A stretch of DNA of 64,000 bases from Gloeocapsopsis sp. IPPAS B-1203 (GTDB lineage: Bacteria; Cyanobacteriota; Cyanobacteriia; Cyanobacteriales; Chroococcidiopsidaceae), in assembly GCF_002749975.1 (NCBI RefSeq), contig NZ_PEIG01000013.1:101139-165138 (forward strand), in the 5' to 3' direction. The notes beneath the pieces are model-generated. The model did no database searches. It saw only the letters and a list, made by a program, of their open reading frames with translations, and was not told the origin of the DNA. Every line of letters starts with the position of its first letter. Within the stretch, counting starts at the first letter, position 1. Shown here piece by piece: positions 2,919 through 64,000 of the stretch. The translations under genes and the position numbers were made by a program.

Positions 2919-4303
2919 ACAGCCACCAGCTTTTTCGTCGCAGTCGTACCCGTCTAGCACTCTGGTATGCGCTCGTCATGGGGATAATTTTAAGCCTGTC
3001 TTGGTTCGGGATGTACCGAGCGCTCGTTCAAGCAAACTGGGCAGCGCTAGAACGAGAAATTGAGTCGATCGCTGGAACGCTGCATGACAGTCTGGAACCT
3101 AGGCTATCTGCTTCAGAAGATCCGGCAGTTGTTTTACAGCGAATTTTTCCTGAACTATGTTTAGTAGGTCAATTTTGTAATATCAGTTCCACCTTAATTC
3201 AGCGCCATACAATCGGCATTAGCGATCGGAGTACCTACTACATTCGCTTGTTCGATCACCACGGCAAACTACTTGCTTTTTCACCTAATCAACCGCCGCC
3301 GCTTCCTCAGACTTTCAACCCTGCTCCGTGGCAAACATTTCGCACTACTGATAGGACTCGCTATCTCCAATTCACGACAATTTTGCACAGTGCTAATGCG
3401 AAACATCAGGCGGCTCAAACAACTAATTATCCATCCTGGGGCTATCTGCAAATCGGACGTACTTTAGCACCCTTTGATGCTGAAACCAGGCGAATGCAAT
3501 GGACATTTATTATTGGATTCCCTATTGCGCTGGGTTTGGTGGTTATTTCAAGTTGGCGGCTCTCAGGCTTGGCAATGCAGCCTATTTACCAGTCCTATCA
3601 GCAACAACAACAGTTTACCGCCAATGCTGCCCATGAGTTGCGATCGCCTCTTGCTAGCTTACTGGCAACTATAGAAGCCATTTTGCGAGTTCCCCAATCA
3701 AATCAACAAAATATCCAAATTATGCTGCATACTGTTGAACGGCAAGGACGACGCTTGAGTCATTTGATCGCAGATTTACTCTTTTTGACTAGTCTTGAAC
3801 AAGATTCGTCATTAAAGCCCTTTCAACCCTGTTGTTTGAATGACCTCATCAATGATTTGACTGAAGAGTTTTTAGAGCTTGCAACGGCATCAGATATTCA
3901 CCTAACCAGCCGAATTCCTGATTTTGAGGTATACATCCTGGGTAACGAATCGCAACTTTACCGCTTAGTATCAAATTTAATTGCCAATGCCATTCAGTAC
4001 ACACCTAGTGGAGGACAGGTGAGCGCGAGTCTCACAGTGCGCGATCGCACTGCCATAATTGCGGTAAAAGACACAGGGATTGGGATTCCGCTAGCTGAAC
4101 AAACGCAAATTTTTGATCGCTTTTATCGTGTTGATGGAGACCGCTCTCGCAAAACTGGAGGAACAGGATTGGGGTTGGCGATTGCACTGGCAATTGCCCA
4201 AAAACATCAAGCCCATCTCAGTGTTGAAAGTCTAGTAGGACAAGGGAGCATTTTTACTTTAGAAATGGTAATTACAAACCATAGAACATTTAGGCACGAT
4301 TGA
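2915..4303 (+). CDS. NrsS/RppB-like membrane sensor histidine kinase
   Basis: Sensor kinase partner of the preceding regulator. I chose GTG 2915, whose GTGA overlaps the regulator stop; the longer frame would begin inside the regulator gene at a TTG. Two membrane helices (about residues 13-32 and 195-215) flank a periplasmic loop of some 160 residues containing two cysteines (LCLVGQFC). Then come the HisKA box AHELRSPL with H240, the N-box NLIANAIQYTP, and the G boxes DTGIGIP and GGTGLGLAIA. 462 residues, normal for the family. The signal sensed is not visible from sequence; metal sensing by the periplasmic loop is inferred from the neighbours. Confidence 0.92.
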   Translation: MNSHQLFRRSRTRLALWYALVMGIILSLSWFGMYRALVQANWAALEREIESIAGTLHDSLEPRLSASEDPAVVLQRIFPELCLVGQFCNISSTLIQRHTIGISDRSTYYIRLFDHHGKLLAFSPNQPPPLPQTFNPAPWQTFRTTDRTRYLQFTTILHSANAKHQAAQTTNYPSWGYLQIGRTLAPFDAETRRMQWTFIIGFPIALGLVVISSWRLSGLAMQPIYQSYQQQQQFTANAAHELRSPLASLLATIEAILRVPQSNQQNIQIMLHTVERQGRRLSHLIADLLFLTSLEQDSSLKPFQPCCLNDLINDLTEEFLELATASDIHLTSRIPDFEVYILGNESQLYRLVSNLIANAIQYTPSGGQVSASLTVRDRTAIIAVKDTGIGIPLAEQTQIFDRFYRVDGDRSRKTGGTGLGLAIALAIAQKHQAHLSVESLVGQGSIFTLEMVITNHRTFRHD

Positions 4304-4331
4304 AGCAAGATTTGAAGAATTCTCTTGTTTG

Positions 4332-4733
4332 TCAAGAATTTTGCTCTTGTAGATGCTCTGAAACCTCCTGATAAAGGCTGATGATATGCTGGTCGGCCAG
4401 ACTGTAATAGACATTACGTCCTTCCCTGCGATATTTCACCAGGTGTTGTGATCGCAAAATTCGTAATTGGTGTGATACCGCAGACTCACTTACCTTCACA
4501 GCAGCCGCTAAATCACAGACACATAGTTCTCGATTCGCTAACGCAGACATCAACCGCAAACGATTTGGATCGGCCAATGCATTAAAAAACTCTGCCATCT
4601 GTTGCGCCTTGTCAACAGGCATAATTTCTGGTTGAACCTGACGCACTTGCTCAAGATGAACGAGATGAGCGTCGCAACTGGGCATATCTTCATTATTCTG
4701 AGAAGACTCCGATTTTGGTGACAATTTGCTCAT
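4332..4733 (-). CDS. ziaR: SmtB/ZiaR-type zinc-responsive repressor
   Basis: ArsR/SmtB winged-helix repressor that releases DNA when it binds Zn(II). The HTH spans about residues 70-95 (SESAVSHQLRIL). Both known zinc sites are visible: alpha-3N ligands C71 and C73 in ELCVCD with N-terminal C20, H23 and H26, and alpha-5 ligands D114, H116, H127 and E130, with exactly the SmtB spacing D-x-H-x10-H-x2-E. 133 residues is typical. It is transcribed divergently from the zinc ATPase gene across a 156-bp region with a 12-2-12 inverted repeat, the classic ZiaR/ZiaA arrangement. The symbol rests on this arrangement and the residues; SmtB-like is the safe family call. Confidence 0.93.
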   Translation of the reverse strand: MSKLSPKSESSQNNEDMPSCDAHLVHLEQVRQVQPEIMPVDKAQQMAEFFNALADPNRLRLMSALANRELCVCDLAAAVKVSESAVSHQLRILRSQHLVKYRREGRNVYYSLADQHIISLYQEVSEHLQEQNS

Positions 4734-15300: not shown

Positions 15301-16638
15301 TTACTGTTTAGCCAGCTTAAGGTTTGAAGATTGATTGATTATTGAAGGCAACCGAATCGTAAAAGTGCTACCTCTACCTAGTTCACTCTGCACCTGTAAG
15401 CTACCTCCGTGTGTTTGGACGATTGCTTGCGCGATCGCCAACCCTAACCCTGAACCACCTGTATGACGAGCGCGATCGCTACTGACGCGATAGAAGCGGT
15501 CGAAAATCCGTTTTTGCTCTAAAGGTGCAATGCCAATACCTGTGTCTTGAACTTGAATAATTCCATGGTGATCGCTGTAATTCAACGTAACATTCACTTG
15601 ACCATCTGTAGGGGTATATTGAATAGCATTAACAATAATATTAGAAACCAAGCGATACAACTGTTCCTCATCACCGATAACTTTTATCGGTCGATGTACC
15701 CTTGCCCCATAACTGATTGTTACTTTAGCTGCGATCGCTAAGGCTGCAAGTTCTTCGACTAAATCGCTAACAATATCATTCAGATAACAAACTTGGCGTC
15801 GTATTGGTATGGGTTGTCGCTCTATACGAGCAAGTAGTAGTAAATCAGCAACCAATGTCGTGAGCCGCCGATTCTGACGCTCAATTGTGCGTAAGATATT
15901 CCGTGCTTCTGATTCAGGTAAGTTAGGCATTCCCGATACTGATTCTACCGTTGCAGCAACTGCTGCTAAAGGCGTTCGCAGTTCGTGAGCAACATCTGCG
16001 GTAAACTGTTGAATTTGGCTGTATGATTCGTAAATGGGTTGCATTGCAAATCCTGCTAACCACCAACTCGCACCGCCTACTAAAACCATAGCAATTGGTA
16101 AACCCAGCAATAAAACTAGTTTCACATTAGCAAGGTAATTATCGACATCGTTGAGACTTCGTCCCATCTGCATATATCCCCAAGGGCGATTGTCTTGCGT
16201 GTGCAGTGGTAAGGAAATTTGATGATAGCGATTTCCTTTAGTATCTTGAACTGTTTGCCAAGTAATCTCTCCTGATGTAGTAGGTAATCCCTCTGGCTGA
16301 AACCCCGCCGTAGTAACCGTCTGTCCCGCCGTATTTAATAACCTTACAAAGTAATCGCCTTGGTGAATAGCTCCAAGGATATGTTGTTGCGGCTTCCGTT
16401 CTGGTAAGAGTTGCTGAGCAGTTGGTTCTACACGTCCAGGCTGCTTTAATACACTTTCAACACTATCATGTAATGTTCCAGCAACTGACTCTAGTTCTCG
16501 ATCTAAAGTTTGCCAATGGGCATGAACAAGCGCTTGGTATAAACCCAGCGCACATATACTTAAGACTAAACCCATCGCAGCAGAGTAGCAACCTGCTAAC
16601 TTCCAACGAGTCAGATAAAAAAGCTTATTTTGGTTCAT
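15301..16638 (-). CDS. NrsS/RppB-like sensor histidine kinase (second copy)
   Basis: Sensor kinase of 445 residues from the ATG at 16638 (MNQNKLFYL); an ATG three codons upstream is also possible. Both overlap the end of the regulator gene. Two membrane helices (about 15-35 and 175-197) frame a periplasmic sensor loop. HisKA has AHELRTPLAAV with H218, the N-box is NIIVNAIQYTP, and G boxes are DTGIGIA and GGSGLGLAIAQ. It resembles the kinase at 2915-4303 throughout but lacks the extra cysteines of that loop. It pairs with the regulator at 16625-17329. Confidence 0.92.
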   Translation of the reverse strand: MNQNKLFYLTRWKLAGCYSAAMGLVLSICALGLYQALVHAHWQTLDRELESVAGTLHDSVESVLKQPGRVEPTAQQLLPERKPQQHILGAIHQGDYFVRLLNTAGQTVTTAGFQPEGLPTTSGEITWQTVQDTKGNRYHQISLPLHTQDNRPWGYMQMGRSLNDVDNYLANVKLVLLLGLPIAMVLVGGASWWLAGFAMQPIYESYSQIQQFTADVAHELRTPLAAVAATVESVSGMPNLPESEARNILRTIERQNRRLTTLVADLLLLARIERQPIPIRRQVCYLNDIVSDLVEELAALAIAAKVTISYGARVHRPIKVIGDEEQLYRLVSNIIVNAIQYTPTDGQVNVTLNYSDHHGIIQVQDTGIGIAPLEQKRIFDRFYRVSSDRARHTGGSGLGLAIAQAIVQTHGGSLQVQSELGRGSTFTIRLPSIINQSSNLKLAKQ

Positions 16639-54889: not shown

Positions 54890-55405
54890 ATGGCTAAGAT
54901 TGCTTTGTTTTATGGAACTCAAACAAGCAACACGCAAACCGCAGCAGAATTGATTCAAAAAGAGTTTGGTAGTGACGCTGTTGTAACACTACAGGATATC
55001 TCGCAAACTGAACCTAACGACTTTAATGAATATCAGTACATCATCATTGCATGTCCGACCTGGAACGTAGGAGAGCTACAGAGCGACTGGGAAAGTTTCT
55101 ACGACGATCAGCTAGATAACATCGATTTTAGCGGAAAGAAAGTTGCATACTTTGGAGAAGGCGATCAAATTGGCTATCCCGATACTTTCCAGGATGCAAT
55201 GGGAATATTGGAGGAAAAAATTTCTGAACTTGGTGGCGAAACGGTTGGCTACTGGTCTACTGAAGGATATGAGTTCAGTGATTCTAAAGCACTCCGAGAC
55301 GGTAAGTTTGTGGGGCTAGCCCTAGATGAAGACAACCAGTCTGAACTAACAGAAGAACGCATCAAGGCTTGGGTTGCTCAACTCAAGACTGAGTTTGGGC
55401 TGTAG
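54890..55405 (+). CDS. isiB: Flavodoxin (IsiB-like, long chain)
   Basis: 171 residues. FMN phosphate loop GTQTSNTQT (9-17), W/Y flavin stacking positions in CPTWNVGELQSDW and YFGEGDQIGYPDTF, and a C-terminus (LDEDNQSELTEERIKAWVAQL) closely resembling cyanobacterial IsiB. It replaces ferredoxin as electron carrier when iron is short or Fe-S clusters are damaged; excess copper damages such clusters. Its place behind a MerR-type palindrome suggests metal-stress control rather than Fur alone. The usual YFGTGDQIG is YFGEGDQIG here. Confidence 0.93.
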   Translation: MAKIALFYGTQTSNTQTAAELIQKEFGSDAVVTLQDISQTEPNDFNEYQYIIIACPTWNVGELQSDWESFYDDQLDNIDFSGKKVAYFGEGDQIGYPDTFQDAMGILEEKISELGGETVGYWSTEGYEFSDSKALRDGKFVGLALDEDNQSELTEERIKAWVAQLKTEFGL

Positions 55406-55435
55406 CTTGCTGATTATAAATGATGAGAAAAAAGC

Positions 55436-55467
55436 TTGACTCTCCAGTTTACTGTACAGTTTACAGT
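55436..55467 (+). promoter_or_regulatory. MerR-type promoter M8 (glutaredoxin/RND operon)
   Basis: TTGACT, 20-bp spacer CTCCAGTTTACTGTACAGTT, TACAGT. It heads the glutaredoxin-MauE gene and, by position, the RND adaptor and pump. Confidence 0.78.
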
Positions 55468-55504
55468 GATGAACAGTTGAGCCAGGATCATTGCTCTGGC
55501 TGCA

Positions 55505-55609
55505 ATGCCTTTAAAAAGATTGTGCCTCCTCGTGCATCAGGATTGCAGCATTTGTGCTAGCTGGCAGATCGAGTATCACAATTGTGGCAGCCTTCAACAC
55601 AATTTTTAA
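55505..55609 (+). CDS. Possible Cys-rich 34-residue leader peptide
   Basis: MPLKRLCLLVHQDCSICASW, then QIEYHNCGSLQHNF and TAA. Four cysteines, including CSIC, and two His in 34 residues, between promoter M8 and the glutaredoxin gene. No convincing ribosome site, so it may be chance or a decayed gene. Confidence 0.25.
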   Translation: MPLKRLCLLVHQDCSICASWQIEYHNCGSLQHNF

Positions 55610-55626
55610 CCTCCAGGAGGTAAATT

Positions 55627-56451
55627 ATGACTGTTATGAATCGAAAAACTAAAAATACGACTGCTACATCCGTTACTGTTTATCGGATGTCTATGCCTGA
55701 GCATGAGTGCCCTTGGGGACTTCGTGCGATCAAATTGCTTCAGGAGCAAGGTATGGAATTCGAGGATGTTAAACTCCGATCGCGCCAAGAAGTCGATCAG
55801 TTCAAAGCAAAATACGGTGTTGCCACTACCCCTCAGATTTTCTTTGGTAAAGAACGAGTCGGAGGTTACACAGATTTGGCAGAACGGCTAAAGGTAGAAG
55901 CAGAAAAAGCTGAGTATTCCTATACTCCAGTCGCTGCGGTCTTCTCGACGGCCGGACTAATGGCGCTTGCCACATCGCTTGGAATTCCTGGCTTCATGGG
56001 ATTTTCGCTCTCAATGCTGGCTTCGCTCAAATTGATGGATATTAACGCTTTTGCCGAGAGCTTTGAAAAATATGACCTCGTCACCAAGCGCTTCAAGCCC
56101 TATGGAAAAATCTATCCCTTTGCTGAGTTACTAATTGGGCTTGGGTTTCTCTCTGGCGTTGCCCCGCTTGCTACTGGAATTGGGTCATTGATTGTTGGTG
56201 TGAGTGGTGCAATTTCGGTCTTCAAAGCGGTCTACATTGATAAGCTGGCGTTAAATTGCGCTTGTGTGGGCGGTAACTCTAAAGCACCACTGGGTGTCGT
56301 CAGTTTTGCTGAGAACGCAATCATGGCAGTGATGGGTGGAGTGCTAACCTTTTCTGCATTGTCAGAGGCAAATATTCAGTCGATGCGAAGTCTAGAAGCA
56401 TTGCCTCCAGCGGTGGTGCAGCTACAAGAAGGAAACTACGAAGCTAAATGA
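55627..56451 (+). CDS. Glutaredoxin-MauE/DoxX-like membrane fusion protein
   Basis: 274 residues. Residues 15-92 are a monothiol-type glutaredoxin domain (C28 in HECPWGLRAI, cis-Pro TTPQIF, GGYTDL). Residues 100-250 form four membrane helices of the MauE/DoxX type with a cysteine pair (NCACVGG, C211 and C213) at the end of a helix, which can pass electrons across the membrane. AGGAGG lies 6 bp before the ATG. This fusion suggests electron transfer from cytosolic thiols to the periplasm. First clear gene behind promoter M8, 22 bp before the RND adaptor. Confidence 0.85.
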   Translation: MTVMNRKTKNTTATSVTVYRMSMPEHECPWGLRAIKLLQEQGMEFEDVKLRSRQEVDQFKAKYGVATTPQIFFGKERVGGYTDLAERLKVEAEKAEYSYTPVAAVFSTAGLMALATSLGIPGFMGFSLSMLASLKLMDINAFAESFEKYDLVTKRFKPYGKIYPFAELLIGLGFLSGVAPLATGIGSLIVGVSGAISVFKAVYIDKLALNCACVGGNSKAPLGVVSFAENAIMAVMGGVLTFSALSEANIQSMRSLEALPPAVVQLQEGNYEAK

Positions 56452-56473
56452 GCAGGATGATTAGGGTTGAATT

Positions 56474-57760
56474 ATGGAATCATCTGATTTTTCTGCAACG
56501 AATTCATCTTCTCAAAGGGCTTCAGCCCCTCCTCGTCACTTTCGCCTGGGGTGGTTGCTAGGGCTGCTGTTGCTAGGGGGCGGTGGGTTGGGAGTTTGGT
56601 GGGTTTTGGCTCCGGGGCGTGAGCCAGTTCCTGCAACTGCCCAGCAACCAGCGATGCCCGTCAAAACCTTGACCCTACAGCCGCGCCTCATTCAGGAGCG
56701 ATCCGAGTTCATTGCTAATGTGCGATCGCGCCGTTCCGTGACGCTACGACCCAGAATTCAGGGTCAAATTACTCAGATTCTGGTGACACCCGGAGAACGG
56801 GTTACTACCAGAACCGTACTCATTCAAATTGATCCAGATGAACAACAAGCGGCTGTCAGCAGTACCAGTGCAGCAGTAGAATCGGCTCAAGCGAATGTGG
56901 AGAATGCCAGAGCCATATTGCGATCGCTCGAAGCCGAACGGGTATCTAAATTATCGGATGTCGAACTTAATCAACAAGAGTACGAGCGCTATGCAGCACT
57001 GGCTGAAGTGGGAGCTGTTTCGCAACAGACACGAGACCAGTATGCTAACCGCATTGAAGTCGCGCGGGCTAACCTCAATGCGATTGCAGAACAAATTCAA
57101 GCGCAACAAGCCGCCGTTGTTCGGGCTGAGAAGGCAGTACAGGAAGCTCAAGCACGGATTCAAGAACAACAGGTGCAGCTTCAGTATTTTCAAATTGCGG
57201 CTCCGTTTGCGGGTGTTGTAGGCGATATTCCTGTGAAAGTGGGTGACTTCGTGGATACCTCTACCGAGCTGATCAGCGTTTCAGAGAACGATTTGCTAGA
57301 GGTGAATTTTTCAATCCCGGCTGAGCAGGCAACTCAACTGCGAGTAGGCAGCCCAGTTGAGTTATTCGACAGCCAGGGGCGCAAATTGGGAACTAGCCAA
57401 GTTTTTTTCATTGCTCCTAACACAGCTAACACAACGCAATCTGTTCTTGTCAAAGCCTCGCTTGACAATTCTGACGGGCAATTGCGAACGGATCAATTTG
57501 TGCGGGCAAGCGTGATTTGGAATCAGCAACCCGGTGTACTTATTCCCACAACTGCTGTGACGCGCTTAGGTGGAGAAGCCTTCGTTTATGTGATTGAACC
57601 CTCAGAGTCAGGATTCGTAGCTCGACAGCGCTTAGTTGAACTCGGCAGCGTGGAGGGCAATGATTATCAAGTTCTTGATGGATTAGAGCCAGGAGAAAGC
57701 ATTGTTACCTCAGGAGTCCTGGCTCTAAGGGATGGTGTACCGATTACCCCCGAATCCTAG
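56474..57760 (+). CDS. RND periplasmic adaptor (AcrA/MexE-like)
   Basis: 428 residues: cytosolic start, one membrane helix (about 27-48), lipoyl halves (VTLRPRIQGQITQILVTPGE and IAAPFAGVVGDIPVKVGDFV) around an alpha-hairpin (135-230, rich in Ala, Gln and Glu), a beta-barrel and a membrane-proximal domain ending VPITPES. This is the adaptor type that serves HAE-class pumps for organic toxins rather than the CusB type. It is followed after 32 bp by the pump gene. Confidence 0.92.
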   Translation: MESSDFSATNSSSQRASAPPRHFRLGWLLGLLLLGGGGLGVWWVLAPGREPVPATAQQPAMPVKTLTLQPRLIQERSEFIANVRSRRSVTLRPRIQGQITQILVTPGERVTTRTVLIQIDPDEQQAAVSSTSAAVESAQANVENARAILRSLEAERVSKLSDVELNQQEYERYAALAEVGAVSQQTRDQYANRIEVARANLNAIAEQIQAQQAAVVRAEKAVQEAQARIQEQQVQLQYFQIAAPFAGVVGDIPVKVGDFVDTSTELISVSENDLLEVNFSIPAEQATQLRVGSPVELFDSQGRKLGTSQVFFIAPNTANTTQSVLVKASLDNSDGQLRTDQFVRASVIWNQQPGVLIPTTAVTRLGGEAFVYVIEPSESGFVARQRLVELGSVEGNDYQVLDGLEPGESIVTSGVLALRDGVPITPES

Positions 57761-57792
57761 CATCGGAATTTCTAGTATTACAGAGTTAGCTT

Positions 57793-60700
57793 ATGTTCGC
57801 TGATTTCTTCATCAAACGACCTGTTTTTGCGATCGTTTGTGCTTTGGTTATTCTAGTGGCGGGATTAGTTAGTCTGCCTACTTTACCCGTCGAGCAGTAT
57901 CCTGACATCAGCCCAGTGCAAATCACGGTGACTGCAAACTATGTCGGTGCCAATGCTCAAGTCGTCGAAGACACTGTCACTACTGTGTTGGAACGGCAGA
58001 TTAATGGGGTCGAAGGCATGCGGTATATGAGTTCGACCAGTAGTAACGATGGCACGAGTACAATCGTCGTCACCTTTGAGCAGGGATATGACATTGATGT
58101 CGCTGCATCTGATGTGCAAAATCGGGTACTGCAAGTGGAACCGCGCTTACCAGAAGCTGTGCAACAAACGGGCGTATCGGTATCAAAGCAGTCTAGCGGT
58201 ATTGTCTTAGCAATGGCAATCTATAGCGAAGACGATCGCTATGATGATATTTTTATCAGCAATTATGTGGATCTCTATGTACTAGATCCGCTCCGGCGCA
58301 TTGAGGGCGTTGGCAACATTCTTGCGTTTGGTGAACGTCGTTACGCCATGCGAGTTTGGCTAGACCCGAATCGGCTTGCCAGCCGTAACCTTACGGCCCA
58401 GGACGTAATTAACGCCCTCAATCAACAAAATGTGCAGCTAGGGATTGGTAGTATTGGACAACCGCCTGTATCTGATGAGCAACTCTATCAAATTGACTTG
58501 CAGACGATCGGTAGGCTGAGAGACGCAAACGAGTTTGAGGAGATTGTGCTGAAAGCCGAAACTGATGGCACGCTGGTGAAATTGAAAGATGTGGGTCGGG
58601 TTGAGTTAGGGGCTGAAAACTATAGCTCGTTCGCCAGCTATAGAGGACATGTTTCAGTGGGCTATCAGGTGATTCAGATTCCAGGCAGCAATGCTTTGAA
58701 CATTGCAAAAGCGGTCAAGACTGAAATGCAACGATTGGCAGAGAGCTTTCCTGCCGGCTTGACCTACGACATTCCCTATGATTCTTCATTGTTTGTAGAG
58801 GCATCTTTCAAGGAAGTCGTCATCACTCTGGTTCAAGCAGTATTGCTAGTTGTGCTGGTAATTTTCATCTTTTTGCAAGATTGGCGCACCACGATCATTC
58901 CAGCCATCACGATTCCCATTTCTTTGATTGGCACTTTTGTATTCGTAAAACTATTCGACTTTTCACTCAATAGCCTGACGTTATTTGGTTTGACATTAGC
59001 AACCGGAGTGGTTGTGGATGATGCGATCGTTATCGTAGAAGATATTTCCCGTTTAATTCAAGAAAAAGGGCTGAGTCCAGCTCGAGCTGCAATTGAAGCC
59101 ATGCACGAACTGTTTGGGGCAGTCATCGCCACATCGTTAGTGCTGATGGCAGTGTTTATTCCGGTGGGTTTTTTCCCTGGAACTACTGGGCAACTCTATA
59201 AGCAGTTTGCTCTAACAATTGCCTTTGCCATTGCTATTTCTACCTTTAATGCGCTGACATTGACTCCCGCCCTTTCTGCTCTATTGCTACGTCAACAGCC
59301 TCAATCACGAGGCTGGTTAGGTTGGAGCTTTAATCGCATCAATGGGTTTCTCAATTGGCTGCGTCGTGTTTATAATCGTGCCCTTCATTTCATCATTCGG
59401 TTTAAGGGAGCCGTGCTCATCCTGTTTATCGCGTCCTTAGGGTTAACGGGTTGGCTTTACCTGCGCGTCCCACAAGCCTTTTTACCCGATGAAGATCAAG
59501 GATATTTCATCAATTTGATTCAAGGACCCGATGGCACATCCTTAAATTACACCAAACAGATTGTGGAGCAAGCGGAACAACAGTTGCTCGACGTGCCCGA
59601 AATCCGAGCAACCTTTGCCGTTGGTGGTGTAGGATTTAGCGGCAATGCTCCTAATCGAGGATTTATGTTTGCGCCCCTCCAGCCTTGGACTGAACGAACC
59701 AATCCGGAACAGACGGTATCAGGCATTCTGAATCGGGTACGAGGATCACTGATGGCGATTCCGCAAGCTCCGGTGCTGGCAATCAATCCACCGACGATTC
59801 AAAGTTTGGGCAGTGTAGGTGGTTTTGTATTTCAACTGCAAGATCGAAGCGATCGTACCACCAGTGATATTAGCACGCTCGATCAGATGAAGGGTGAACT
59901 GCTCAATCGTGCTAATCAAACCCCAGGATTGCAGGCTGTTTTTAGCACCTATACGGCAAACGCACCACAACTGTTGCTTGAAGTTGATCGCGATAAAGCG
60001 GAGGCATTGCAAGTTTCAGTCGATGAAATTTACAGTACACTGCAAACCTATCTCGGTTCGCGCTACGTCAATGATTTCAATGCATTTGGTCGCACCTATC
60101 GTGTTTATATCCAGGCAGATCAACAATTTCGTTCTAATCCAGAACATATTAGTCAGTTGTACGTGCGTTCCAGACAGGGTGAAATGATTCCTTTGAGTAA
60201 CCTCATGACCATGACTCAAACAACTGGTCCGCAAACGATTAATCACTATAACCTGTATCGATCAATTGAAATTAATGGGACAGCCGCGCCTGGGTTTAGT
60301 TCTGGACAAGCTATTCAAGCCATGGAAAGATTGGCGGCTGAGGTGTTACCTCCCAACATGGGATTTGAGTGGTCAGGAATTTCTCTGGAAGAACTAGAAT
60401 CTGGAGGGCAGGCTCCCATCATTTTTGGGTTAGGTGTTTTCTTTGTACTCCTGGTTCTGGCAGCTCAGTACAACAATTTTGTTGATCCACTCATTATCGT
60501 GTTGTCTGTTCCTTTGGCGGTTCTAGGAGCGTTATCAGCTCAATCTCTGCGAGAGTTATATAACGATGTATATTGTCAAGTTGGACTCGTCATGTTGATT
60601 GGTTTAGCTAGCAAGAACTCAATTTTGATTGTAGAGTTTGCCAATCAATTACGCGATCAGGGACTTTCAATTACTAAAGCAGCTATACAAGGCTCACAGG

Positions 60701-60942
60701 AGCGATTACGCCCAATTTTGATGACAGCCATCTCTACCCTGTTAGGCATTTATCCGTTGGTTATGGCAACTGGAGCCGGATCAGCTAGTCGCCAATCCTT
60801 AGGAACGGCAGTTTTTGGTGGAATGTTAGTTTCAACACTTTTGAGTTTATTCGTGGTGCCCATGCTCTACATCATGATTAGCAAGATTCGAGAACGATTG
60901 ATACGCTCGCCATCCATCCACATCTTTGATGAACAGGCTTGA
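57793..60942 (+). CDS. HAE1-type RND multidrug efflux pump (AcrB-like)
   Basis: 1049 residues, start FADFFIKRPVFAIVCALVIL typical of HAE1 pumps. TM4 carries the proton-relay pair in ATGVVVDDAIVIVED; two large periplasmic loops, and LIGLASKNSILIVEFANQL near TM11. Family members export hydrophobic compounds, dyes or siderophores. No TolC gene is adjacent; the channel at 13345 could serve. Its position behind a MerR metal promoter suggests that it exports a metal complex or a product of metal stress, which is inference. Confidence 0.93.
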   Translation: MFADFFIKRPVFAIVCALVILVAGLVSLPTLPVEQYPDISPVQITVTANYVGANAQVVEDTVTTVLERQINGVEGMRYMSSTSSNDGTSTIVVTFEQGYDIDVAASDVQNRVLQVEPRLPEAVQQTGVSVSKQSSGIVLAMAIYSEDDRYDDIFISNYVDLYVLDPLRRIEGVGNILAFGERRYAMRVWLDPNRLASRNLTAQDVINALNQQNVQLGIGSIGQPPVSDEQLYQIDLQTIGRLRDANEFEEIVLKAETDGTLVKLKDVGRVELGAENYSSFASYRGHVSVGYQVIQIPGSNALNIAKAVKTEMQRLAESFPAGLTYDIPYDSSLFVEASFKEVVITLVQAVLLVVLVIFIFLQDWRTTIIPAITIPISLIGTFVFVKLFDFSLNSLTLFGLTLATGVVVDDAIVIVEDISRLIQEKGLSPARAAIEAMHELFGAVIATSLVLMAVFIPVGFFPGTTGQLYKQFALTIAFAIAISTFNALTLTPALSALLLRQQPQSRGWLGWSFNRINGFLNWLRRVYNRALHFIIRFKGAVLILFIASLGLTGWLYLRVPQAFLPDEDQGYFINLIQGPDGTSLNYTKQIVEQAEQQLLDVPEIRATFAVGGVGFSGNAPNRGFMFAPLQPWTERTNPEQTVSGILNRVRGSLMAIPQAPVLAINPPTIQSLGSVGGFVFQLQDRSDRTTSDISTLDQMKGELLNRANQTPGLQAVFSTYTANAPQLLLEVDRDKAEALQVSVDEIYSTLQTYLGSRYVNDFNAFGRTYRVYIQADQQFRSNPEHISQLYVRSRQGEMIPLSNLMTMTQTTGPQTINHYNLYRSIEINGTAAPGFSSGQAIQAMERLAAEVLPPNMGFEWSGISLEELESGGQAPIIFGLGVFFVLLVLAAQYNNFVDPLIIVLSVPLAVLGALSAQSLRELYNDVYCQVGLVMLIGLASKNSILIVEFANQLRDQGLSITKAAIQGSQERLRPILMTAISTLLGIYPLVMATGAGSASRQSLGTAVFGGMLVSTLLSLFVVPMLYIMISKIRERLIRSPSIHIFDEQA

Positions 60943-60973
60943 TTCAACAGTCAGAAAAGTTTTAATTGAGAGC

Positions 60974-61005
60974 TAGATTCTTTAGTTTACTAGAGAATCT
61001 AAGAA
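60974..61005 (+). promoter_or_regulatory. MerR-type promoter M9, target gene lost
   Basis: TAGATT, 20-bp spacer CTTTAGTTTACTAGAGAATC, TAAGAA. Downstream, ATG 61027 opens only 21 codons (MNRFYSRIHGCSALLN) before running into the IS630 fragment, so the original target gene appears to have been replaced. Confidence 0.6.
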
Positions 61006-61057
61006 GCAATCTTTGAAGATTACACAATGAATCGTTTTTATAGCCGTATTCATGGTT

Positions 61058-61298
61058 GTTCAGCACTTCTCAATCCGATTAAGGTCAGGTAAGTAGGGGG
61101 GTAGATAAACGACTCGGCACCCTGTGACTTCAATCAGTTGAGCAATACGACCGCCGTGATGAAACGTGGCGTTATCGATAATCATCCACTGTCCAGGACG
61201 CAGTTGCTGCACTAAGTACTTCTCTAGCCAAGTCAAATACTGTCCGTTTACACGCCCCTGTGACGGTAAACGGAGCAATCAGTTGATCATTCGCTTGC
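61058..61298 (-). pseudogene. IS630-family transposase fragment
   Basis: Minus strand pieces LIAPFTVTGACKRTVFD and, after a one-base shift near 61229, WLEKYLVQQLRPGQWMIIDN, ATFHHGGRIAQLIEV, YLPPYLPDLNRIEKC. These are the central Asp strand and the SPDLNPIE glutamate motif of IS630/Tc1-type transposases. It is cut at both ends: after IEKC at 61060 and at 61298, exactly where the candidate transposon end begins. Confidence 0.85.
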
Positions 61299-61501
61299 TG
61301 TCGCGAAACAGGGTATTTATCCTCGTTAACAAAATAAATATCCGCCGTAGGAATGGCGAGAATGCTTGTACAGTAGGAGTTATAGCTTCTTTGAGCGAAC
61401 AGATTAGTTGTCCGAAAATCAGTGCAACAAATTAACACAATATTTGCCCAGTGGATGAGATAAAGTGATGGAAACTGTTGATAGCAGGCTCGACAGTGAC
61501 A
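61299..61501 (+). mobile_element. Candidate left end of a type V-K CAST-like transposon (element 1)
   Basis: Begins TGTCG at 61299, directly where the IS630 fragment stops. Four copies of a motif AACAnATTAA-like lie at 61307 (degenerate), 61328 (AACAAAATAA), 61398 (AACAGATTAG) and 61426 (AACAAATTAA), two near the tip and two further in, as TnsB-binding repeats are arranged in Tn7-like left ends. A tnsB-like gene follows inside, in the expected orientation. Confidence 0.6.
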
Positions 61502-62350
61502 ATGACCCAAATGGGCGAATTCGAGATGAGTGCGGCTGATGATAGCTCGTTGGCGAGCGAACGAGCACAAGAGAAGGATGACTCTAGGAAGGGCGAACGA
61601 ATGCGCTTATTAAGTGAGTCCGAGCGTAAGCGGTTGTCAGTATTACAAGAATTGTTAGCGACGGCAGGGCAGCCAGGATATGGGCAACGGCAAGCAGCAG
61701 CGGCACAAAAGTTAGGGATGACGGTTCGGAGCGTGCGCCGACTGATGCGGCAATTACGCGAGGAGGGAGTGGAGAGTATCATCCGGCGATCGCGCTCGGA
61801 TCGAGGAGAAGCGCGCATCAGCTCTCAGTGGCAGCAGTTTATTGTGAAAACTTATCGCTCTGGGAATCGAGGCGGTCGGAGAATGAACCCGGCACAAGTG
61901 GCAGTGCGGGTGAAGGTACGGGCACAAGAACTAGGGACACAAGAGTATCCGAGCCACATGACGGTCTACCGCATCTTGAAGCCGTTAATCGAGCAGGGGC
62001 AACCGCAAAAGCGCTCTTTAGGGTGGCGCAGCGATTGTCTGAGCCTGAAAACTCGTGAAGGGTTAGAAATCCCCATTGAATGGTCAAATCAAGTCTGGCA
62101 ATGCGATCACACACGAGTCGATGTGTTGGTCGTGGATGCTGCTGGCGAGATTTTAGGGCGACCTACCTTATCGATAGTAGTAGATACTTATTCGCGCTGC
62201 ATCATGGGCATCCATTTGGGATTCGACGCACCCAGTGCGGCTGTAGTGTGTCTGGCGCTGCGTCATGCTATTCTACCCAAGCACTACGAAAGCTGGGTAT
62301 TTCGAGTCATTTCTTATCCTGGTGAAAGCTTATGTCGAATAACAAATTAA
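61502..62350 (+). pseudogene. tnsB: TnsB-like transposase of CAST type, C-terminally truncated
   Basis: 282 codons from ATG 61502 (an in-frame TTG at 61478 is also possible). HTH domains: RLLSESERKRLSVLQELLAT, YGQRQAAAAQKLGMTVRSVR. The start of an rve/DDE core follows: VWQCDHTRVDVLVVD, DTYSRCIMGIHLGFDAPS, LALRHAILPKHY. These phrases are highly characteristic of TnsB from type V-K CRISPR-associated transposons. Homology ends after KHYES near 62291, before the second catalytic Asp and the Glu, and the last residues come from unrelated sequence and the next element end. The protein cannot catalyse transposition. Confidence 0.82.
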
Positions 62351-62526
62351 CAGAGTCGTTAACAAATTAACTGTGTGGGAGGAGAATTTGCTGTAACGCT
62401 TTTGGAGCAGCGATTTCAGCAACGGGACTAACGTGAGACAAGCCAAAACAGGCTTAACAAATTAAGCGCATCAATTTAGCGTAGAATTAACAGATTAACT
62501 GCGCGATTGAGAAGGAGGCTAATTGT
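62333..62526 (+). mobile_element. Second candidate CAST-like left end (element 2)
   Basis: TGTCGAATAACAAATTAAC at 62333, with motif cores at 62341, 62361, 62456 (AACAAATTAA each) and 62489 (AACAGATTAA). The tip-to-first-core distance (8 bp) and the 2+2 grouping are the same as in element 1. It abuts the truncated tnsB of element 1 and is followed by its own decayed tnsB start. Confidence 0.65.
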
Positions 62527-62755
62527 GTGGATCAAGATGAGGTCAACCCAGCAATTTAGCCTGAAATCGTGACGCAACTGAGTGAGCGCCAACACCAACG
62601 CTGGGAAGTAATTCAGGACTTAATTGCTGCTCCAGAGCAAGCAACTTATCATCAACGCCAGCAGGCAGGTGCGAAGCGATTGTGAACTTAAGTATCAGTA
62701 GCATTCAGCGACTGGTGCGCGAGTTGTCATCTTGGGGATGCGATCGCACGCCTTT
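62527..62755 (+). pseudogene. Second TnsB-like N-terminal remnant
   Basis: From GTG 62527 an in-frame TAG (62557) is followed by PEIVTQLSERQHQRWEVIQD, LIAAPEQATYHQRQQAGAKR and, after a one-base shift near 62684, NLSISSIQRLVRELSSWG. This matches the first HTH region of TnsB, as in element 1 (LSESERKRLSVLQELL). Homology ends soon after 62740. Decayed by a stop, a frameshift and truncation. Confidence 0.7.
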
Positions 62756-63874
62756 TGGGCAGAGAGTGGGCGTACAACAGAAAGCAAATCAATAAATCTC
62801 AGCTTGTACAGTTCTACGAGGGTGTTGTAGTTGTACAAGTATAGGAGACCGATATACAGACAAATGTACAGATAAGCTCAGGACTGGGACTAGATGAGAT
62901 ACATCTAGCGAGCAATGATACCAAGCCAAGCAAGAAGCTCGTGCCAGTGAATTGCCATCCTCTAAAGCCGATAGGCTAATGGTGCAACCAGCATGTTGCT
63001 ATGTAGACTCAGAGTGAGGTTGAGTTTTTAGATTTAGTTTAGTTTTTTAGGGGCGAAGACAGTTGAGCCGTAGCAGGCAGGAGTAGCGGACAGGTAAGTA
63101 CTCAGGGCTGCGATTGCAGAGATAGCACCACAAATACTGGTTTATTTAGGCGTACGGTTAGTCAGCAGGAATTTAGCTGTATAATAATAGCGCTCAGTGG
63201 AGCCAGACAATTTTATACGCTTAAATAAGATAGGACTAATGCTTGAGTTCAAAGTGAGCGATGTGAGCGATCGCCCTTCAATATCAGCAAGGTTACGAGC
63301 TAAACCCGGAATTCATCCAGGTCAGGCGAGGCATAGTAGCGGAGCTTGAGCTAGCAAGCGAGGACAGGCAAGGGAAAGGCGCATGATACTGAGTGCAACA
63401 GGGCAGGCAATAGCAGAACACAGTAAGAGGCAAGGCTAGCCTTGATTGCACTGTTTAACTCAGCAAGGACGAAGGCACAAGAAGCAAGCGATCACGTTGC
63501 TAGCTAGAAACAAAGCTAAACAATCGCAGTATGCCACACCAGCAATCAACAGAGGCTATGATGGGGATGCGATCGCACTGCTTTGGGCATACAGAGAGCC
63601 AGCCAACAATCAACAAAGCAGAGGCACTCCTACGAGCGTTCAATTACTGAAACGCGAATAAATTAAAAGTGTATATGTACAGCAATTCCTACAATCTTAC
63701 AGACATATTTGTACACTTGTACAGTTATGTGAGAAAACTGTATAGGTGCATTTATACAGTACAGTGTAAGTGTAAATGTAAAAGCCTTGCTAGATAAGCA
63801 CTCTAGACTAGCATGTTCATGCCCTAAAATATCTGTATAGATCTGGTAAGGGCGGATAAGCGGATAATCTGGCT
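62756..63874. other. Non-coding stretch with TGTACA clusters
   Basis: No convincing gene on either strand over 1.1 kb; a 71-codon frame at 63446-63661 has no ribosome site or family signs. TGTACA or near copies cluster at 62800-62870 (TTGTACAGTT, TTGTACAAG, ATGTACAGAT) and at 63675-63765 (ATGTACAGC, TTGTACACTTGTACAG, ACAGTACAG). They continue into the palindrome. They might be iterons, regulator sites or transposon-end remains. Confidence 0.5.
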
Positions 63875-64000
63875 CTGTACAGCCAAAAATTTGACTGTAT
63901 ATACAGGTAAATATGAGCGTACATTGTTATATTGGAATTCCAATATAACAATGTACGCTCATATTTACCTGTATATACAGTCAAATTTTTGGCTGTACAG
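63875..64000. repeat. Perfect 126-bp palindrome reaching the window edge
   Basis: 63875-63937 is exactly the reverse complement of 63938-64000, without spacer; the axis lies inside GAATTC (ATTGGAATTCCAAT). Each visible arm starts with CTGTACAG and contains CTGTATATACAG. The right arm is cut by the window end, so the true palindrome may be longer. Confidence 0.97.

Follow-up and report, generated by a model that had tools for sequence, protein, structure and literature searches.

The last 2.7 kb of the contig studied here from Gloeocapsopsis sp. IPPAS B-1203 most probably consist of two nested, decayed transposons of the V-K transposase family. Each extends from its TGTCG tip as far as the palindromic terminus of a putatively linear plasmid with a predicted hairpin telomere, and they are likely to have spread by the joining of a single end to a plasmid arm, bringing the telomere along. 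The 64,000-nucleotide stretch that was analysed (the window) corresponds to G000:C13:101139-165138; its last base is also the end of the contig, which has no bases past 64000. The best reading of this end is that of nested relics of V-K-derived telomeric transposons with a predicted hairpin telomere, the class itself being already published. Telomeric transposons, reportedly described by Hsieh et al. in Science in 2025 from cyanobacteria and Streptomyces, are said to possess one specific end and to have the telomere as their second boundary. By this description the anatomy is shared: one specific transposon end is present in the window, and the telomere, as far as the sequence tells, is the second boundary. 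The window copies differ in being dead and nested. In PMC12669027 the report of Hsieh et al. (2025) appears by its title, together with one sentence on I-E5 CASTs.

The RND efflux permease gene (57793..60942, + strand) marks the arm common to the window and the Gloeocapsa PCC 7428 plasmid pGLO7428.02. It is followed by a fragment of an IS630 transposase gene (61060..61298, - strand), which is recognised by IS630 DNA similarity and by a DDE_3 match in the frame 61060-61278 (Pfam, E 3e-14) and is cut at the tip of element 1; the piece 61172-61297 had no Pfam match. Element 1 spans 2.64 kb from 61299 to the telomere and includes a tnsB-side end (61299..61477, +), only the 5' part of tnsB (61478..62287, +) and a 5' remnant of tniQ fused to it (62288..62332, +). 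Element 2 is nested in this tniQ remnant, spans 1.6 kb from 62333 to the telomere and has its own tnsB-side end (62333..62526, +) and a decayed tnsB stub (62578..62682, +). The subtelomeric stretch at 62724..63937 shows piecewise 74-91% identity to four relatives (G119, G161, G067 and G102), and the window closes with a perfect palindrome of 126 nt (63875..64000), the predicted hairpin telomere, centred between 63937 and 63938. The two nested units proposed in the sequence-only reading, with tips at 61299 and 62333, spaced repeats and tnsB remnants after each tip, are borne out by this layout.

Both tips consist of TGTCG and repeats spaced 20 bp apart. The repeats of element 1 begin, in register, at 61306, 61326, 61396 and 61424, those of element 2 at 62339, 62359, 62454 and 62487. 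A single repeat 12-mer is unremarkable in the window (16 matches with up to two mismatches vs 12.99 expected; 21 of 100 shuffles reach 16), but six of the 16 matches cluster in 61326-62498. Whole ends were scored with a 45-nt matrix covering the tip and the first two repeats, constructed from 13 ends located next to related TnsBs in other genomes (of the 19 loci L012-L030, 13 contributed an end, and eight of these had Cas12k seen nearby). With this first matrix, 62333 tops 127,912 positions with 19.7, against -1.2 for the runner-up and 7.3 for the best of 10 Markov windows, and 61299 ranks only 49th (-14.3). A second matrix also included the ends of the telomere-linked clade described below, the tested end being left out (for element 1, the G119 copy as well). 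It gave 16.1 for 61299 (next 3.1) and 18.0 for 62333 (next -0.7), each window tip being beaten only by the other, which was then part of the training set. These scores agree with the V-K-type end architecture proposed earlier for both tips.

The strongest evidence for the tip at 61299 is positional, as it is independently fixed by a first base shared after unlike flanks. The last 127 nt of another contig of the same genome (C27) are identical to 61299-61425, with zero further identical bases upstream, and the copy in Gloeocapsopsis dulcis (G119) starts at the same base behind a third flank. The flank is IS630 DNA in the window, an IS110 gene (Transposase_20, E 3e-18) in C27 and an unannotated stretch in G. 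dulcis. The IS630 similarity stops at 61285, about 14 nt short of the tip, in line with the earlier claim that element 1 adjoins a cut IS630 gene. That the tip is an internal part of the IS630 gene is ruled out by the flanks in C27 and G. dulcis.

Both ends had been called left ends. The ends themselves stand and the name does not: in a passage of PMC9938897 the V-K convention defines the left end as the CRISPR/tRNA-side end, therefore the tnsB-side ends of the window would be right ends. No second transposon end was found between the tip and the contig end by a matrix scan of both strands of 61299-64000, in which only the two + strand tips score and the best - strand score is -13.8; a strongly diverged end could escape the matrix.

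The 290-aa frame of element 1 carries VWQCDHTRVDVL and DTYSRCIMGI, as had been noticed from the sequence, and its assignment to the V-K TnsB family is corroborated: ShCAST TnsB is the best solved match (E 9e-77, vs 7e-9 for I-F3 TnsB and 2e-6 for Tn7 TnsB), and the protein is placed among Cas12k-linked TnsBs in the tree. The TnsB similarity ends at residue 272. The stretch at 62279-62332 matches the TniQ start of G152 (67% over 18 aa, E 6e-5), and weaker TniQ-start matches after residue 272 are seen with G161 (E 0.016) and the V-K genome G201 (E 0.37). At the DNA level, 62294-62331 matches tniQ of G119 (87% over 38 nt, E 1e-5). Since a TniQ start follows residue 272, the remainder of tnsB is missing from element 1, as is tnsC, and element 2 lies within tniQ. 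The neighbour of element 2 is a tniQ remnant, as the protein and DNA matches show, and not the cut tnsB suggested by the sequence-only reading. A TnsB N-terminus had been assigned to both units; it is confirmed for element 1, and element 2 keeps only about 35 recognisable residues (46% over 35 aa, E 4e-5). Just the start of tniQ is left in element 1, and the sole strong TnsC-like match in the genome belongs to another element, on C27. In PCC 7428 this efflux gene likewise has a homologous tnsB beside it, which lacks the tip and the 5' part and contains no element 2.

A second Tn7-like set with open genes is located at G000:C27:4749-9291 (L008) and codes for a 755-aa TnsB, a 347-aa TnsC and a 412-aa TniQ-like protein. 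The DNA to its left and right matches neighbouring parts of NC_020051.

The palindrome at the contig end is not a mere artefact, since its centre reappears in other assemblies; the 126-nt length was probably set by the assembler. An identical 24-nt palindrome centre is present in G067, G119 and G161. In G067:C6 and G102:C5 each end bears a homologous palindrome, with half-lengths of 63 and 18 nt, and the identical terminal repeats measure 1385 and 1340 bp, respectively; G102:C5 is NC_020051, a Gloeocapsa PCC 7428 plasmid recorded as linear. Perfect palindromes with the same centre sequence as in the window were found in G161:C2 (5478 bp, centre 470905) and G119:C3 (NZ_CP119970; 3476 bp, centre 211060), the latter record carrying the label circular. 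In both cases a linear replicon was probably joined through its hairpin during assembly. A different palindrome of 68 nt is located at both ends of G139:C31 (85 kb), with a 4928-bp repeat that includes a 635-aa tnsB.

The window region 36500-60900 aligns with positions 4883-39855 of NC_020051 (96.9%, 94% covered), and C27 aligns with 179455-183919 at 96.7% and with 184838-188635 at 91.4% (32% of that query covered). The two contigs thus match opposite arms of the plasmid. The palindromic end found here belongs to one arm; the other arm stops at the contig end of C27. The halt of C27 after exactly 127 nt of the element fits an assembler word length, and we infer that C27 continues to a telomere. 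A short GTGGGGTTCTAGAG-type repeat opens both C13 and C27 (L043, L048) and may have caused the plasmid assembly to break between them.

A telomere resolvase gene is present in the same genome: PF16684 was matched at C27:13514-14101 (E 3e-60) within a 784-aa open frame. Within the family, six of 19 genomes have such a resolvase, among them the present one. Across the order, the PF16684 domain was found in 51 of 291 genomes (50 above the cut-off), often several times in each, and it also matches the Synechococcus elongatus control. A linear form with a hairpin telomere is predicted for the window plasmid. Hairpin-telomere linear replicons with a telomere resolvase are known from N15 and Borrelia. 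This cyanobacterial plasmid shares with them a palindromic contig end and a PF16684 resolvase gene, whereas its arm ends bear transposon sequence and its hairpin is predicted.

A 65-row tree unites the six telomere-linked TnsBs (window, G067, G161, G152, G139:C31 and NC_014534) in one group with 100/100 support. This clade sits inside the starred nodes, the Cas12k-linked clades are outside, and the outgroup is on a long branch. The G102 TnsB was left out of the trees, being 98.7% identical in DNA to G067 over the arm; L039_1 and L092_0 (G252) are omitted from the 65-row tree. An earlier 46-row tree had placed L092_0 within the clade, at the end of a long branch, and neither telomere nor resolvase was seen on its 5.9-kb contig. 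Among 58 other TnsBs, tblastn detected Cas12k (fragments counted) in the neighbourhood of 30; short contigs hold many of the remaining 28, and up to 20 kb was read per locus. Beside the telomere-linked TnsBs it was found in none of six cases, as judged by tblastn for four, by the whole genome for the window and by the annotation between tip and record end for NC_014534. A TnsB hit (E up to 1e-20) was present on 88 contigs, a resolvase on 80 and both on five (G067:C6, G102:C5, G139:C31, G152:C169 and G161:C2), all of which belong to the telomere-linked clade. No resolvase was seen at the 60 other TnsB loci within the 4-20 kb read. The sample is non-random, as similarity to the window TnsB decided which loci were included.

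The sequence-only reading regarded the elements as relics of CRISPR-associated transposons, and this part of it is not sustained: in addition to the lack of a second end and the position of TnsB in the telomere-linked clade, a Cas12k search of the genome with E up to 10 came back empty and the Rfam scan of 55000-64000 gave zero matches. No spaced repeat array was found in 60500-64000. The window elements share with type V-K CASTs (ShCAST and kin) the TnsB family, the tnsB-side end with 20-bp spaced repeats and the tniQ remnant, but they have neither a Cas12k match nor a second end, and a telomere stands in their place. A repeatedly hit hotspot had also been proposed; the nesting is real, and the hotspot is the telomere.

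Ordinary two-ended V-K CASTs could nevertheless have inserted near the plasmid end and then decayed until Cas12k, the CRISPR array and the other end were gone, with the telomere as a mere neighbour. The V-K type of TnsB and of the ends and the decay of both window copies suit this explanation, as do Cas12k remnants on the chromosomal contigs G161:C1 and G119:C1, three Cas12k genes on G139 contigs other than C31 and a Cas12k at 386944-388927 of NC_014534, 371 kb from the tip. However, the six telomere-linked TnsBs come from separate replicons and make one clade, the contigs with both TnsB and resolvase (5/5) fall in it, and G152 and NC_014534 have open tnsB, tnsC, tniQ and resolvase genes from tip to contig end with no Cas12k there. 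We therefore consider decay of ordinary CASTs unlikely.

The gene order in G152:C169 is tip, tnsB, tnsC, tniQ, resolvase and a 40-nt palindrome at the contig end, and the TGTCG at 4338 cuts a CHAT gene. A candidate inverted end in this genome (L034:9700; 8.0 with the left-out and 6.9 with the full matrix) was rejected, as it is under the best of 20 random 5-kb maxima (12.4). NC_014534 (Gloeothece verrucosa PCC 7822) is recorded as linear; it has a tip at 15857, followed up to the record end by tnsB, a TniB-type tnsC, tniQ and resolvase, and its record ends are not palindromic. A passage of PMC4320622 calls it a linear plasmid with seven CRISPR-related genes. In G161 the 3' part of tnsB, tnsC and tniQ face the telomere, and the tip (460072) and the 5' part of tnsB face away, an arrangement that can be read as a later inversion. 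The G139:C31 element has its resolvase inward of the tip and no tnsC shown; its tip scores only 1.1 when left out of the matrix, which is first in its locus and below the best of 20 random 5-kb stretches (12.4). Just inside this tip (3624), telomere-proximal DNA recurs as a copy, a trace expected if the element had inserted into an older subtelomere.

The tnsB element of G139:C31 (L036) has on each side (92-928 and 3624-4481) a copy of the subtelomeric DNA and of a protein of unknown family; the two frames have 233 and 247 aa, the first without a Pfam match. AP018300, a Fischerella NIES-4106 plasmid recorded as circular, carries a cut TnsB (L157, 175451-176701) 61% identical to that of G152 and also a resolvase-like match.

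Overall, the telomeric reading is favoured by the palindromic contig end, by homologous palindromes at both ends of linear relatives, by the resolvase in the genome, by the match of C13 and C27 to opposite arms of NC_020051, by the exact tip boundary after three flanks, by the lack of a second end in the window, by the single clade of telomere-linked TnsBs to which every contig with both TnsB and resolvase belongs, by the gene order in G152:C169 and by the copied DNA inside the G139:C31 tip. The G139 element, the G161 orientation, and the non-palindromic ends and distant Cas12k of NC_014534 speak against it. The arms of G067/G102, G119, G161 and G139 turn identical at non-tip places, therefore arm copying by recombination also occurs. 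Recombination between arms (copying of terminal repeats) could then account for the shared arm ends with no transposition of a telomere-bound element, and the terminal repeats of the relatives (1385, 1738, 2739 and 4928 bp) do end at non-tip places. Yet the boundary in the window and in G. dulcis is exactly the TGTCG base, with unlike flanks, which makes this explanation very improbable. A CAST relic continuing beyond 64000 can be dismissed, as the palindrome that closes the contig has homologues at plasmid ends and the genome has no Cas12k match.

Since the telomeric transposon proposed here has one recognisable end and runs into the palindromic tip, it likely moved carrying the telomere. From this anatomy, transposition would proceed from one end. 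TnsB, acting together with TnsC and TniQ, would cleave the 3' strand at the tip and transfer it to the target DNA; without TnsA, replication would pass from the target through the element to the hairpin and back, and the new end would then be sealed by the telomere resolvase. As the former distal arm would disappear, every insertion would truncate the previous one. Such one-ended joining with subsequent replication to the hairpin would agree with the published telomeric-transposon class. Relevant passages of two papers state that V-K elements have neither TnsA nor a resolvase and that ShCAST makes cointegrates (PMC11406308), and that ShTnsB binds either end singly (PMC9527255). Judging from their sequence, both window copies are broken (tnsB cut, tnsC gone), therefore further movement would need proteins from elsewhere.

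Chances seem even that a V-K lineage gave up the guide-RNA half and the CRISPR-side end, took on a hairpin telomere and a telomere resolvase in exchange and thus became a jumping telomere; element 2, with one end and a telomere in 1.6 kb, may be a telomere movable in trans by full-length relatives. The telomeric reading explains why hunting for the rest of a CAST past the contig would yield nothing, and it flags plasmids recorded as circular as probably linear. It also points to an RNA-guided transposon family as the source of telomere carriers, a step that can be tested by phylogeny, with relatives that have open transposition genes and with the dead nested copies.
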